From Lachnospiraceae bacterium (GTDB lineage Bacteria > Bacillota > Clostridia > Lachnospirales > Lachnospiraceae): a DNA stretch of 64,000 bases. The position numbers were made by a program, and so were the translations under genes. The notes below the pieces were generated by a model that made no database searches, had not been told where the DNA came from, and worked only from the letters and a program-made list of their open reading frames with translations. The stretch covers positions 1 to 64,000 of the forward strand of contig JAFVSN010000037.1 of NCBI GenBank assembly GCA_017503735.1, read 5' to 3'. Below are positions 2,971 to 28,040 of this stretch, in pieces (within the stretch, counting starts at the first letter, position 1; the number at the start of each line of letters is the position of its first letter).

Positions 2971-3196
2971 AAGGGACCAAGTATAAGCATTTCTCTCATG
3001 ATTCGGATATAAGTCGTTCTAATTACTCCGGGGAAGAATTCTATAAAGTGACGCAACCGGTCATTACGCGGCGTCCATGCCGCGTGCGACCTCGCTCGTA
3101 CGTCCTGTCCGAGCGTTGCTGACAAACATGCGGAGTAATAAGAACGACTAATATCCTGCTCAAAGTTCGAAACGCTTATGCCCTGTACCCCCTTTC
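2971..3196. repeat. Long imperfect inverted repeat (hairpin element)
   Basis: The 26-base arms at 3005-3030 and 3131-3156 are reverse complements with two mismatches. Outer arms at 2983-2993 and 3169-3179 match at 10 of 11 positions. The centre holds smaller stems such as GCGGC/GCCGC near 3078-3095. The whole could fold as one hairpin over 200 bases long. No transposase is present, so it may be a MITE-like remnant or a structured RNA. Confidence 0.6.
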
Positions 3197-23516: not shown

Positions 23517-23701
23517 AAGAAACTCCTTCCTTCTGTAAAATCCGCCGTCTTTTCGGCGTATTATCATAATTTTATTGTATCATCCTTTTTCTTGTTGTAC
23601 ATACACGATGTTGCAAAAAAACTAACATATTGTGCAAACTTATTTTTTATGATATGCTATTAAAAAAGCAAAAAACGTACAAAAGAAAGGAGCCGGACCT
23701 C

Positions 23702-24484
23702 ATGCAGATAAAAAAAACAGGCTATCACCATACCCACGACACCTCTTTCCATATCGATCGTCCTTTCGGTTCCGGAGACTGGTTACTTCTTCTTGTATTT
23801 ACACCGTCCCGCCTCGTCCTTAACGAAACGGAACATATCACGACAGAGCCTTATTTTATTTTGTACGACAACGGCACCCCACAACATTACGGAGCTACCG
23901 ACACCGACTACACCGACGACTGGGTACATCTGACTTTAAACGAACGTGATCTGGCACACTTAAAAGAACTGGGGATTCCCTTTGATACGCCGGTGTTTCT
24001 CAAAAACATAGAGCAGCTTTCAAAACTACTGGAATCCATCGCCTACGAGTTCCACTCTCCCCATCCGTTAAAGCAGGAAAATTTAACCCTGTATCTACGC
24101 CTGTTTTTTAACTATCTGAGTGAAGAATTCGAGGCCATCCGGCATCGTGACCCACACTTTCTCCTGTTTAACCGCATCCGCAGCCAGATGTATAATGAGC
24201 CGTATTTATACCACTCCCCGGACGAACTGGCAAAAGAGGCGGGCCTTAGTCGTTCCTCTTTCCAGCACATCTACCGGAAGCTCTACGGCACCGGTGTCAT
24301 CGCGGACCTGATCCGTGCCCGGACGGAATATGCCTGTTACCTCCTGTCCTCCACTACCCTTCCGGTGTATCAGATTGCGGACACCTGCGGCTACCACAGT
24401 GAGATTCACTTTATGCGGCAGTTTAAAGAACAAACAGGAAAGACCCCGACAGAGTATCGAAGAAGTGTAACAAAGGAAGAATAG
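23702..24484 (+). CDS. AraC family regulator, divergent from abfA
   Basis: A 260-residue AraC/XylS regulator. The N-terminal ~140 residues are a cupin-like sensing domain. The C-terminal ~100 residues hold two helix-turn-helix units, including SPDELAKEAGLSRSSFQHIY and the family signature QIADTCGYHSEIHFMRQFKEQTGKTPTEYRR. AAAGGAG precedes the ATG at 23702. The 185-base divergent spacer to abfA contains the shared control region; an arabinose-type sugar is the expected ligand (inference). Confidence 0.88.
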   Translation: MQIKKTGYHHTHDTSFHIDRPFGSGDWLLLLVFTPSRLVLNETEHITTEPYFILYDNGTPQHYGATDTDYTDDWVHLTLNERDLAHLKELGIPFDTPVFLKNIEQLSKLLESIAYEFHSPHPLKQENLTLYLRLFFNYLSEEFEAIRHRDPHFLLFNRIRSQMYNEPYLYHSPDELAKEAGLSRSSFQHIYRKLYGTGVIADLIRARTEYACYLLSSTTLPVYQIADTCGYHSEIHFMRQFKEQTGKTPTEYRRSVTKEE

Positions 24485-24520: not shown

Positions 24521-24549
24521 TTGCAATCTTTTTCATTCCGTGTTATGAT
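24521..24549 (+). promoter_or_regulatory. Promoter of the argS leader
   Basis: TTGCAA (24521), 17 bases, TATGAT (24544). The predicted start is about 24556, giving a leader of about 290 bases before argS. Confidence 0.7.
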
Positions 24550-24579
24550 ACACCTAAATTTTTTGAAAGGACAACTGCT

Positions 24580-24636
24580 ATGAATCCATTCTTGCAGAAC
24601 AGCTTAAGACGCAGACAGAGACGTATGCTCTTGTAG
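24580..24636 (+). CDS. Arginine-rich leader peptide of argS
   Basis: An 18-residue peptide, MNPFLQNSLRRRQRRMLL, with five Arg in six consecutive codons (AGA CGC AGA CAG AGA CGT at 24607-24624). GAAAGGA lies 9 bases before the ATG. Its last codons and stop are part of the first segment of the attenuator fold. A ribosome starved for charged tRNA-Arg would stall at codon 10-12, before this segment. Confidence 0.7.
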   Translation: MNPFLQNSLRRRQRRMLL

Positions 24637-24759
24637 CCTTGTGTATTATCGCACGGTTACAAGAGAGTACGTCTTGTGGCCGTGCGGTGCTGTGAAAGAA
24701 TTCATAGAGACATGGAACCGCAACGGATTTCGCAGATGCGAGCCTTGCGGTTCTTTTTT
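24621..24759 (+). promoter_or_regulatory. Arginine attenuator ahead of argS
   Basis: Four alternately pairing segments are visible. A (24621-24638) pairs with B (24655-24672) over 18 positions with one mismatch. B (24651-24663) pairs with C (24673-24685). C (24680-24688) pairs with D (24717-24726) with one bulge. D (24715-24723) pairs with E (24745-24753) as a terminator followed by six Ts. A stall early in the Arg run leaves A free: A:B forms, C:D follows and the terminator is lost. A ribosome at the stop codon masks A: B:C forms and the terminator closes. This gives argS expression on arginine shortage. Confidence 0.65.
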
Positions 24760-24842
24760 GTTTCCGAAATCCGCCCCCCACTATATGCGATTCCTTGTTA
24801 CGTTTGCAACCTTTCAAAACATCATCACTTAGGAGGTTTCTT

Positions 24843-26585
24843 ATGAAAACAACACTTTGTAACCACATCACGACTGCACTTCCGGGCATTTCCGCGGACA
24901 CCGTCGCAGAACTGTTGGCAGTCCCTCCGGAAGCAGCCATGGGCGACTTTGCCCTGCCTTGCTTTTCCTTTGCCAAAGCCTTGCGAAAAAGCCCTGCGCT
25001 TATTGCAGAGGATATAAAATCCGCTCTTTTTCCGGTTTTTACCATGCTTGGAATTGACCGTATCGAAACCGTGGGCGGCTACTGCAACTTCTTTTTTAAC
25101 CGCACCGCTTACGCCAAGGACTGTCTTCTCAAACTACAAACCGAGACTTTAGGTGTAGACCAACCGGGCACCGGCAAAACCGTATGCATGGACTACTCCT
25201 CTCCCAACATTGCCAAAAACTTTCATGTAGGTCATTTGCGTACCACTGTCATCGGCAATTCTCTGTATAAAATTTTTGACAAATTGGGCTGGCATGTGGT
25301 TCGTACTAACCACTTAGGCGACTGGGGTACCCAGTTCGGAAAGCTCATTGTCGCTTATAAGCTTTGGAGCAGCAAAGAACAAGTAGAAGAAAAAGGAATC
25401 GAAGAATTGCTTCGGATCTATGTGAAGTTTAATGCCGAAGAAAAGGTACATCCGGAACTGACAGAGGATGCCCGCGCCTGGTTTGTGAAAATGGAGCAAA
25501 ACGATCCGGAAGCACTTTCTTTCTGGAATTGGTTCAAGGACATCAGTATGATTGAATTTGAGCGTGTCTACAACCTACTCCACATGTCCTTTGACTCCTA
25601 CACCGGAGAGAGCTTCTTCCGGGAAAAAGTCCCGGCACTGGTCACAGAACTCACGGAAAAGAACCTTCTTACGGAAAGTCAGGGAGCCAAAATCATTGAC
25701 CTGTCGGCCTATGATATGCCACCTTGCCTTATCCTGAAAAATGACGGCGGTTCCATCTACCACTCCCGTGACATTGCAGCTGTCCTGTACCGAAAGGAAA
25801 CCTATGACTTTGACAAATGTCTCTATGTTACAGGTCTCGAACAAAGCCTTCACTTTAAACAGGTCTTTCAGGCAGTGAAGCTCATGGGCTATGATTGGAC
25901 AGACTCTCTGGTGCACATTCCTTACGGTCTGGTAAGTCTCGGAGGCTTGAAGCTTTCCACCCGTGGCGGACACATCATCTACGCCGAGGATATTTTAAAG
26001 GAAGCCATTTCCCGTGCCCTTGCCGCCATCGAAGAAAAAAATCCGAACCTAACAGACAAAGAATCCGTGGCGCGGATGGTAGGCGTGGGCGCGGTTATTT
26101 TCCACGACCTCTTTAACCAGCGTATCAAAAACGTAGAATTCTCCTGGGACGAGGTCTTAAGCTTTGACGGCACCACCGGCCCTTATGTGCAGTACACCTG
26201 TGCCCGGGCAAAAAGCGTGTTGCGGAAAGGCAATTTCTGCTCCGATACCGCCGATATTGCCGACACCTCCGCTGGCATAGCAAAAGACACGCTTGCGGAT
26301 ATTGATTTTTCCGTTTTCACCGACGACTGCAGCTATGCCTTAATCAAGACGCTGTCCGGTTACAACGACGCGGTACAGGCCGCCGCCGAGCGTTACGAAC
26401 CGTCCGTTATCGCACGGTATCTGATTTCCGTTGCCGCCGCCTTTAATAAATTCTACCATGAATGTTCCATTCTTCATGCCGAGGAGCATGAGAAAAAAGC
26501 CCGTCTGGTTCTGACGGACTTAGTACAAAAGGTATTAACAGACGGATGCGAATTGCTTGGCATGGAGTGTCCGGAGGAGATGTAA
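24843..26585 (+). CDS. argS: Arginyl-tRNA synthetase
   Basis: A 580-residue class I aminoacyl-tRNA synthetase that charges tRNA-Arg. The HIGH motif appears as SPNIAKNFHVGHLRTT. The KMSK region reads LSTRGGHIIYAED, as is usual in ArgS. The N-terminal ~100 residues are the ArgS tRNA-binding domain (MGDFALPCFSFAKALRKSP) and the C-terminus is the anticodon-binding DALR domain (EHEKKARLVLTDLVQKVL). The ATG at 24843 follows GGAGG by 6 bases. Control is probably through the leader described above and not through a T-box. Confidence 0.96.
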   Translation: MKTTLCNHITTALPGISADTVAELLAVPPEAAMGDFALPCFSFAKALRKSPALIAEDIKSALFPVFTMLGIDRIETVGGYCNFFFNRTAYAKDCLLKLQTETLGVDQPGTGKTVCMDYSSPNIAKNFHVGHLRTTVIGNSLYKIFDKLGWHVVRTNHLGDWGTQFGKLIVAYKLWSSKEQVEEKGIEELLRIYVKFNAEEKVHPELTEDARAWFVKMEQNDPEALSFWNWFKDISMIEFERVYNLLHMSFDSYTGESFFREKVPALVTELTEKNLLTESQGAKIIDLSAYDMPPCLILKNDGGSIYHSRDIAAVLYRKETYDFDKCLYVTGLEQSLHFKQVFQAVKLMGYDWTDSLVHIPYGLVSLGGLKLSTRGGHIIYAEDILKEAISRALAAIEEKNPNLTDKESVARMVGVGAVIFHDLFNQRIKNVEFSWDEVLSFDGTTGPYVQYTCARAKSVLRKGNFCSDTADIADTSAGIAKDTLADIDFSVFTDDCSYALIKTLSGYNDAVQAAAERYEPSVIARYLISVAAAFNKFYHECSILHAEEHEKKARLVLTDLVQKVLTDGCELLGMECPEEM

Positions 26586-26688: not shown

Positions 26689-27498
26689 TTACTCAAGTTC
26701 TTCCCCGTCAAAAAACGCACATATTCCTTCTACTGCTTCTTCTATAGGAATCTCCAACCAATTTTTATCTGATTTCTTTACATTCTCTATATACCGTTTA
26801 TTATCAAATATGGATCTTAAACGATTTCTAATGTCAAAAATATCATTTTCCCTCATACCGGAATCTTCATATATGTATACTGCAAGACACTTCTTCAATT
26901 CACTAACCGACACCAAATCCTTCAAATATATAATGTCAAATACATCTTTAAATCTCGTAGAAAAGAAACCGAACTTTAATAGCGAACGTAACTTTTCTGC
27001 AAGCATCTGCTCCATTGAATTAATCAATAGACTGGCCCCATCCTCTTGAATACATACATCAAAGCAATACTCCTCTTGCTCAATCTGAAGTTGCTTATGT
27101 ACGCCTAAATCAATTTTACTTTTTACCACATTTCCGAACAAATCCCGGATTATTACATCAACACGTTTCCCATGATACTCTTGTTGGCTGAGTTCTTCAA
27201 ACGCACCGACGGATTGTATCGTAATTCCATCTACACAATTCATTCTTTGTATAAACCTCTTTATGGATTCATCTTCTAAAGAATACCGAATAAAATCAAT
27301 ATCTATATCCTGCGTAGCTCGTCTGATATTTCCTGTTACACTGCGCATTACTACTCCACCTTTTATCGTAACATTACGACATAAGGAACTGTTTGCGATT
27401 GCCATCAAAATAATATCCTGACAGACACGTGCTTCTGCATTTTTTCTGGAATATCCCTCTTCTACAAATCTCTCTACCCAATCCCTAATATTATACAC
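26689..27498 (-). CDS. abiEii: AbiEii/AbiGii-type nucleotidyltransferase toxin
   Basis: A 269-residue toxin of the AbiE phage-defence toxin-antitoxin type. AbiEii is a nucleotidyltransferase that blocks growth when phage enter. Key features are the GGVVM segment and RRATQDIDIDFIRY, the Asp pair of the catalytic strand, plus a downstream Lys/Glu region (QMLAEKLRSLLKFG, TRFKDVFDIIYL) typical of the family. Its first codon overlaps the last base of abiEi, so the two are translated together. GC content is visibly lower than in neighbouring genes, which fits horizontal arrival. Confidence 0.88.
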   Translation of the reverse strand: MYNIRDWVERFVEEGYSRKNAEARVCQDIILMAIANSSLCRNVTIKGGVVMRSVTGNIRRATQDIDIDFIRYSLEDESIKRFIQRMNCVDGITIQSVGAFEELSQQEYHGKRVDVIIRDLFGNVVKSKIDLGVHKQLQIEQEEYCFDVCIQEDGASLLINSMEQMLAEKLRSLLKFGFFSTRFKDVFDIIYLKDLVSVSELKKCLAVYIYEDSGMRENDIFDIRNRLRSIFDNKRYIENVKKSDKNWLEIPIEEAVEGICAFFDGEELE

Positions 27499-28040
27499 TA
27501 AAACACCTCCGACTCTAACCGCTCTATAATCTTACTACTCTTCGGAAAAGCCGCTGCCATCTCCTGTACTTCCTGAATATCCAACTCGTTTACCAGCTTT
27601 CTGTATCGTCCGATTATCTCCTTGTAGTAATCGTAAGGTAGTTTTGACTTATTTCGCACAACTTCAATCAGCATACGCTCCTTACTGTAAATCTTAATCT
27701 CATAGTCAATCTGTTTTTCCCTAACTACTCCCAGTTTCACCACTTCCTTGGGCAAGAAACACTGCTTTACACGTTTATCCTTCATCTTAGATGCATCCCG
27801 GTCTGTTGCCAAATGGGAATAATCCGGAATTGTATCTGTCAGACCATAATGATAAAATGCGCTATCCATCGTTAAAATAGCGTCCGGATATTTTTTCGCA
27901 AGAATCTCTTCCTCTGATGCATATTGCGTGTCCGAATATATCCCTTTTTCTAATTGAAATAACTCACCCTTCTCAATTACTTTACGCATTTGATAATCAG
28001 ACCCGTATTTCTCTATACACTCCTGATAAGTATATAACAT
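27498..28040 (-). CDS. abiEi: AbiEi-type antitoxin
   Basis: A 180-residue antitoxin paired with AbiEii. The N-terminal winged-helix portion (QMRKVIEKGELFQLEKGIYS) binds its own promoter, and the segment PDAILTMDSAFYHYGLTDTIP is the AbiEi core. AbiE pairs are thought to work without direct protein contact (type IV), the antitoxin also repressing transcription. A consensus promoter lies 60 bases upstream. GTGAGAGGATG precedes the ATG. Confidence 0.85.
   Translation of the reverse strand: MLYTYQECIEKYGSDYQMRKVIEKGELFQLEKGIYSDTQYASEEEILAKKYPDAILTMDSAFYHYGLTDTIPDYSHLATDRDASKMKDKRVKQCFLPKEVVKLGVVREKQIDYEIKIYSKERMLIEVVRNKSKLPYDYYKEIIGRYRKLVNELDIQEVQEMAAAFPKSSKIIERLESEVF

Follow-up and report, generated by a model that had tools for sequence, protein, structure and literature searches.

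The window analysed here is a stretch of 64,000 nucleotides (contig JAFVSN010000037.1, positions 1 to 64,000, forward strand) from a Lachnospiraceae bacterium (assembly GCA_017503735.1), and the element in question lies directly upstream of one of the two arginyl-tRNA synthetase (argS) genes of this genome. It consists of a promoter, an 18-codon leader, the segments of four helices (A:B, B:C, C:D and D:E) and a T-run, all within positions 24521-24759 and followed by argS. The leader has arginine in five of six consecutive codons (RRRQRR, 24607-24624). This peptide had been noted in the original prediction, which proposed an arginine attenuator from the sequence of the window, and both the peptide and the coordinates given there for leader and segments hold. 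Helices B:C, C:D and D:E likewise exist as proposed, the last followed by the T-run at 24754-24759. Helix A:B had been described as an 18-position stem (24621-24638/24655-24672); 17 of the 18 positions pair, and the remaining one is a G.A mismatch. A long-range helix of 24578-24603 (segment 0) with 24689-24707, in the spacer between C and D, had been missed. The 323-nucleotide stretch has a predicted folding energy of -101.2 kcal/mol, compared with a mean of -76.1 kcal/mol (standard deviation 5.3) for shuffled sequences (z = -4.71), and none of 100 shuffles was as good.

Table. Features of the leader region and argS in the window
Feature	Position	Strand	Basis and details
Promoter	24521-24549	+	sigma-70-like match: TTGCAA, 17 nucleotides, TG-extended TATGAT
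Leader ribosome-binding site, AAAGGA	24566-24571	+	sequence; 8 bases 5' of ATG
Leader peptide open reading frame, MNPFLQNSLRRRQRRMLL, 18 residues	24580-24636	+	sequence, kept in relatives; stop TAG 24634-24636
Regulatory triplet, AGA CGC AGA (Arg-Arg-Arg)	24607-24615	+	sequence, folding with ribosome positions
Segment 0 (around the start codon, with the first codons; partner, C-D spacer)	24578-24603	+	pairing energies, folding
Segment A	24621-24638	+	alignment, pairing
Segment B	24650-24672	+	alignment, pairing; partner A (24655-24672) or C (from 24650)
Segment C	24672-24688	+	alignment, pairing; partner B or, for 24680-24688, D (antiterminator)
C-D spacer, pairs with segment 0	24689-24714	+	sequence, pairing energies, folding; GCTGTG 24689-24694, ATTCATAG 24700-24707
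Segment D	24715-24726	+	alignment, pairing; with C or E
Intrinsic terminator (with D)	24745-24759	+	predicted from sequence, alignment; segment E 24745-24753, T-run 24754-24759
argS, accessory arginyl-tRNA synthetase, 580 amino acids	24843-26585	+	TIGR00456 match

Promoter-like matches are also found 5' of the leaders of relatives (n = 47), with a mean score of 9.26 against 7.75 for shuffles (standard deviation 0.96). Directly 5' of the promoter in the window is a gene for an AraC-family regulator (23630-24484, + strand), which occupies the same place in the genus relatives viewed (L005, L006 and L011). An antisense open reading frame at 24578-25045 was judged spurious, and a search for other Rfam families at the site with a relaxed threshold returned three chance-level matches only.

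A pattern scan of the named species-genome collection identified 46 loci, 43 of which carry Lachnospiraceae names; the other three are in metagenome bins named Clostridium, Eubacterium and Paenibacillaceae. The carriers include the culturable Lachnoclostridium phytofermentans and Anaerocolumna aminovalerica. At the DNA level 7 of 10 genomes of the genus match the element. A covariance model (R1) found it in 13 of 397 family genomes at E <= 0.01, ten of them strongly (E of 1e-15 or lower) and three weakly. The weak matches (G068, G087 and G202, E 7e-4 to 7e-3) show neither a leader nor a terminator resembling those of the others and were taken as chance. With a wider model (R2), under stricter filters and on overlapping samples, matches were obtained in 5 of 392 order genomes, all Lachnospiraceae, and among 391 class genomes in that of the window only. 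Weak reverse-strand matches of the models were ignored as the mirror image of the A:B hairpin. The exact pattern had no match in viral contigs, and a search of 72,556 plasmid records found none within its limits of sensitivity; with neither kind of match a mobile element reading was set aside.

An alignment of 44 copies (A3) was assembled from the 46 pattern loci, leaving out two that end within the element (L057 and L076), three with decayed RNA (L040, L047 and L048) and one with a frameshifted leader (L067), and adding the window, L002, L027 and L032; a second alignment (A4) holds 29 chosen rows. Standard pairs are kept in 93.2% of cases for A:B, 98.8% for B:C, 93.6% for C:D and 77.3% for D:E, whereas control helices with the partners slid by 1-3 columns give only 25.6-57.5%. 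Given the 46 loci and the difference from the slid controls, the element is, as a matter of sequence, more than a product of chance. Conservation of the peptide and stems in relatives, the lack of which would have spoken against the original prediction, is thus seen both in the 46 loci and in the 44 aligned copies. Covariation had been named there as a check on A:B and C:D. For A:B the outcome is strong, with seven pairs changed on both sides and none of 500 shuffles as high. Six leaders have CAT (His) as the last of the arginine codons, and the same six show the compensating change from G-C to A-U in B. For C:D the covariation score is high, only 2 of 500 shuffles reaching it (4 of 500 for B:C), but double changes are few, as discussed below.

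The regulatory triplet reads AGA CGY AGA in 39 of the 44 rows and GAA CGC AGA in the remaining five, all of which precede a methyltransferase gene; arginine is therefore present at positions 2 and 3 in every row and at position 1 in 39 (RRR in 39, ERR in 5). The N-terminal half of the leader varies, and does so together with its pairing partner. Segment 0 pairs with its own C-D spacer at a mean of -15.0 kcal/mol, compared with -10.6 kcal/mol for spacers swapped among rows, and the z-score against shuffled spacers is below -2 in 40 of 44 rows. When all 44 spacers are ranked, the row's own comes first in six rows, within the top five in 21 and below rank 15 in nine. This helix crosses C:D.

The effect of a ribosome was modelled thermodynamically by folding the RNA from an assumed ribosome edge (start of the A-site codon plus 11) as far as the end of D. 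With the A site at the first codon of the triplet, C:D exceeded 0.5 in all 44 rows; the count was 39 at the second codon and 35 at the third. Three codons before the first arginine codon this number falls to 7 of 44, and from eight codons beyond the first arginine codon onward, as well as at the stop codon, to none. Substituting a footprint of 8 or 14 moves the pattern by one codon. Without a ribosome, C:D exceeded 0.5 in 3 of 43 rows, and 5 of 43 did so when a ribosome occupied the AUG (L072, lacking upstream sequence, was excluded from both). In these foldings the triplet is the sole position at which a waiting ribosome yields A:B plus C:D. The original prediction had a stall at the first arginine codons leaving A free for read-through and a ribosome at the stop codon masking A for termination; folding to the end of D agrees in all 44 copies.

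Downstream of the element, the genomic context is dominated by argS of the window type, which directly follows in 31 of the 46 pattern loci (in L055 in two pieces, and in several cut at the locus end). In three further loci (L053, L068 and L077, a short piece behind the terminator) only C-terminal remnants of argS are present. Eight loci have no downstream match. Three of these (L040, L047 and L048) have no argS and a decayed RNA; in another three (L057, L065 and L076) the locus ends too soon for a downstream gene. L067, with its frameshifted leader, has no argS match although an argS-like start is visible. In L073 a transposase-like open reading frame lies just behind the terminator at the place expected for argS, whereas a further copy in that genome (L005) does precede argS. 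Among the model hits, L021 and L112 retain the leader but little or nothing of argS, and no argS match follows in L032. These remnants and losses behind kept leaders indicate that the leader often outlives the gene.

In the remaining four pattern loci the element precedes a class I methyltransferase gene, and a fifth such copy is the window genome's own second element (C52:40683-40817; L002, about 1504-1634, - strand). The leader of this second copy reads M(M)NGMLNSLERREEERRLL, with Glu replacing the first Arg, and is followed by the methyltransferase and then a GNAT gene. All five copies are in the window's genus, their leaders read ERREEERR or ERREERR, and the GNAT gene follows in four of them. 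Neither the methyltransferase nor the GNAT product reaches any NCBIfam cut-off.

The argS gene of the window matches TIGR00456 at 459.9 bits (cut-off 261.65) and is only one of two in its genome, which are 29% identical to each other; it is the accessory second gene. The housekeeping argS has, by eye, a plain promoter and a short 5' region. In a sample of 200 family genomes, 20 contain argS of the window type (at least 54% identity). The element is present in all five of these that have both kinds of argS (the window genome, G015, G033, G105 and G135) and in none of the 15 that have the window type alone. A branch with a support of 98/100 separates the attenuated genes (23 full-length rows) from the 15 sole genes, so one event may underlie the link between the element and a second argS, and the 20 genomes do not count as independent cases. 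Among 40 distinct genomes chosen because they carry the leader (47 handles, 7 duplicates), 33 have at least two argS matches, including G441 and G442, where there are only fragments beside or replacing a whole gene. Of the seven with one match, only G410 holds an attenuated gene. The neighbours of the leader-argS unit differ, by eye, among eight loci, which look as if the unit had moved alone. We infer some benefit of having an inducible spare synthetase.

T-box riboswitches (RF00230) sense uncharged tRNA and control synthetase genes in the Firmicutes. In agreement with the original prediction, none was found at the window argS, either at the Rfam gathering score or at E up to 10, and there is no T-box match at the housekeeping argS. 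The same prediction took clostridial argS to be more often under T-box control; this is not borne out in the family sample, where none of 30 other argS loci has a match at the gathering score. Elsewhere in the window genome there are 17 T-box matches, 11 of them over the cut-off, indicating that the organism uses T-boxes but not for argS. Any sensing by the present element would instead go through a translating ribosome.

Other RNAs were also observed. A TwoAYGGAY RNA (RF01731) occurs in the window (2998-3163, - strand) and another in L016 (4543-4709), where it lies some 1.3 kb 5' of the housekeeping argS, and a Clostridiales-1 sRNA (RF01699) lies behind a sole-type argS (L095, 3179-3330). Downstream of argS in the window is a gene for an AbiEii-like nucleotidyltransferase (Pfam AbiEii, 26689-28040, - strand). 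A 180-amino-acid gene just upstream of it has no Pfam match, and the two are probably an AbiE-type pair.

The locus thus holds a leader reading frame with a ribosome-binding site and arginine codons, mutually exclusive helices, a predicted intrinsic terminator and argS downstream. Comparison of the copies bears out these parts, their conservation, the covariation of A:B and of the partners of segment 0, and the link to a second argS. Taken together, the element very probably controls the spare argS as a ribosome-mediated transcription attenuator, with charged tRNA-Arg as the signal it senses. RNA polymerase would start at about 24556, and a ribosome would begin the 18-codon leader. With ample Arg-tRNA, the ribosome would reach the stop codon and cover A, so that B is taken up by C, D stays available for pairing with E, and transcription ends 5' of argS. 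A ribosome waiting at the Arg-Arg-Arg triplet would cover segment 0 and leave A free to pair with B; C, freed in turn, would pair with D while E has yet to be transcribed, the terminator would come late, and argS would be transcribed. With no ribosome on the leader, segment 0 would pair with the C-D spacer and hinder C:D, and the terminator would form. As this pairing would block C:D in the untranslated RNA, read-through would be limited to a ribosome near the triplet. We infer the folding states (which assume a ribosome footprint), the signal, and that C:D outpaces D:E kinetically.

Several observations weigh against this explanation. When E is included, equilibrium folding gives D:E above 0.5 in every one of the 44 rows, whichever of the four ribosome states is taken. 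The terminator being favoured in every state, read-through must be kinetic, and the supposition that C:D forms first and holds while the polymerase passes is the weakest step of the explanation. The window itself is a poor example of the state without a ribosome, which is weak there: it is one of the three exceptions, with a C:D of 0.67 (0.25 with slightly different ends). Its C:D also falls to 0.49 with a stall at the second arginine codon and 0.11 at the third. On the side of conservation, of the seven double-changed A:B pairs, one does not pair in 36 of 44 rows; B:C and C:D each show a single double-changed pair, a number that 264 and 439 of 500 shuffles reach; and the inner pairs of D:E, as defined on the window, are kept in only 35.8% of cells. 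The pattern used to scan the species genomes itself fixed part of the arginine codons, and one copy found by a model search without fixed letters (L113) has Arg-Ser-Arg. Finally, the five ERR copies precede a methyltransferase and not argS, and do not fit the expectation of a downstream gene in arginine metabolism.

These last copies bear on an alternative in which the leader senses a drug: a macrolide-like antibiotic would arrest the ribosome at the three arginines, and the same RNA switch would open the downstream gene. Macrolide-dependent arrest is associated with the +X+ motif ([R/K]-X-[R/K]), to which Arg-Arg-Arg conforms, and a methyltransferase followed in four of five cases by a GNAT gene is in keeping with such a role. 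Leaders with Arg-Leu-Arg precede hflX in Bacillales, according to PMC8632094. However, argS, the downstream gene in most loci, is no known drug-resistance gene; the five methyltransferase leaders lack +X+, so the motif is not family-wide; and the products of both genes remain below every NCBIfam cut-off. We therefore consider this alternative improbable. It is also very unlikely that the element is a general sensor of slow translation, in which any early block in the leader opens argS. A:B does form whenever the ribosome is upstream of A, but segment 0 keeps C:D low in the free RNA, with a ribosome on the AUG and three codons before the first arginine codon alike, and arginine is invariant at triplet positions 2 and 3 (a constancy partly forced by the pattern). 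A role in trans for the peptide or for the short terminated RNA, with the link to argS secondary, could account for leaders that outlast argS (the three remnants, three Butyrivibrio loci without argS, L021 and L112) but is most unlikely, since in the three Butyrivibrio loci the downstream RNA has decayed as well, the compensatory changes in A:B point to a role in cis, and the N-terminal half of the peptide changes along with its pairing partner.

The transcription attenuator favoured here resembles several known systems. In his superattenuation of enterobacteria the untranslated state also terminates, as is predicted here. Unlike the enterobacterial his and trp attenuators, the present element has a synthetase as client, would sense arginine and has no sequence relation to them, and its segments 5' of A pair across to the C-D spacer and not with A. 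The pheST genes of E. coli are synthetase genes with a leader-peptide attenuator too, for another amino acid and in another phylum. Within the Firmicutes, PMC2965389 describes histidine leader peptides 5' of hisZ and of a hisS* paralog in bacilli, the other paralog being controlled differently. A second synthetase paralog is under a leader peptide in both cases; that system belongs to another order and to His, whereas the amino acid here is Arg, the gene is argS, and its housekeeping counterpart lacks a T-box match. For the uORFC-8-2 motif 5' of cysS in Rhodobacterales (PMC8632094), a ribosome-mediated attenuator is predicted, likewise on a synthetase gene and with conserved cognate codons, but for Cys, in alphaproteobacteria and with another structure. 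Streptomyces leuS and trpS2 have leader-peptide attenuators as well, according to PMC1262725; trpS2 is also a second synthetase, and both differ from the present case in amino acid and phylum. No report of an arginine leader on argS came up in searches of the open-licence PMC literature.

A more far-reaching possibility, put forward tentatively and rather unlikely, is that the unit is an emergency module. A natural inhibitor, or an analogue of arginine, coming from neighbours in the rumen, gut or soil would block the housekeeping enzyme, ribosomes would wait at the arginine triplet, and a divergent, inhibitor-tolerant spare synthetase would be switched on. Sensor and resistant target would then be self-contained and moved or lost as a unit, with the methyltransferase copy as a second output of the same alarm. 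The attenuator in itself would add arginine and argS to the short list of Firmicutes synthetases under leader-peptide attenuation, where T-boxes are expected, and would tie this control to an unusual client, a spare synthetase. The presence of one element before two unrelated operons suggests re-use of the sensor. Its three-state arrangement may offer a compact, testable case of an RNA tuned to open its gene solely for a ribosome that waits at a single triplet.
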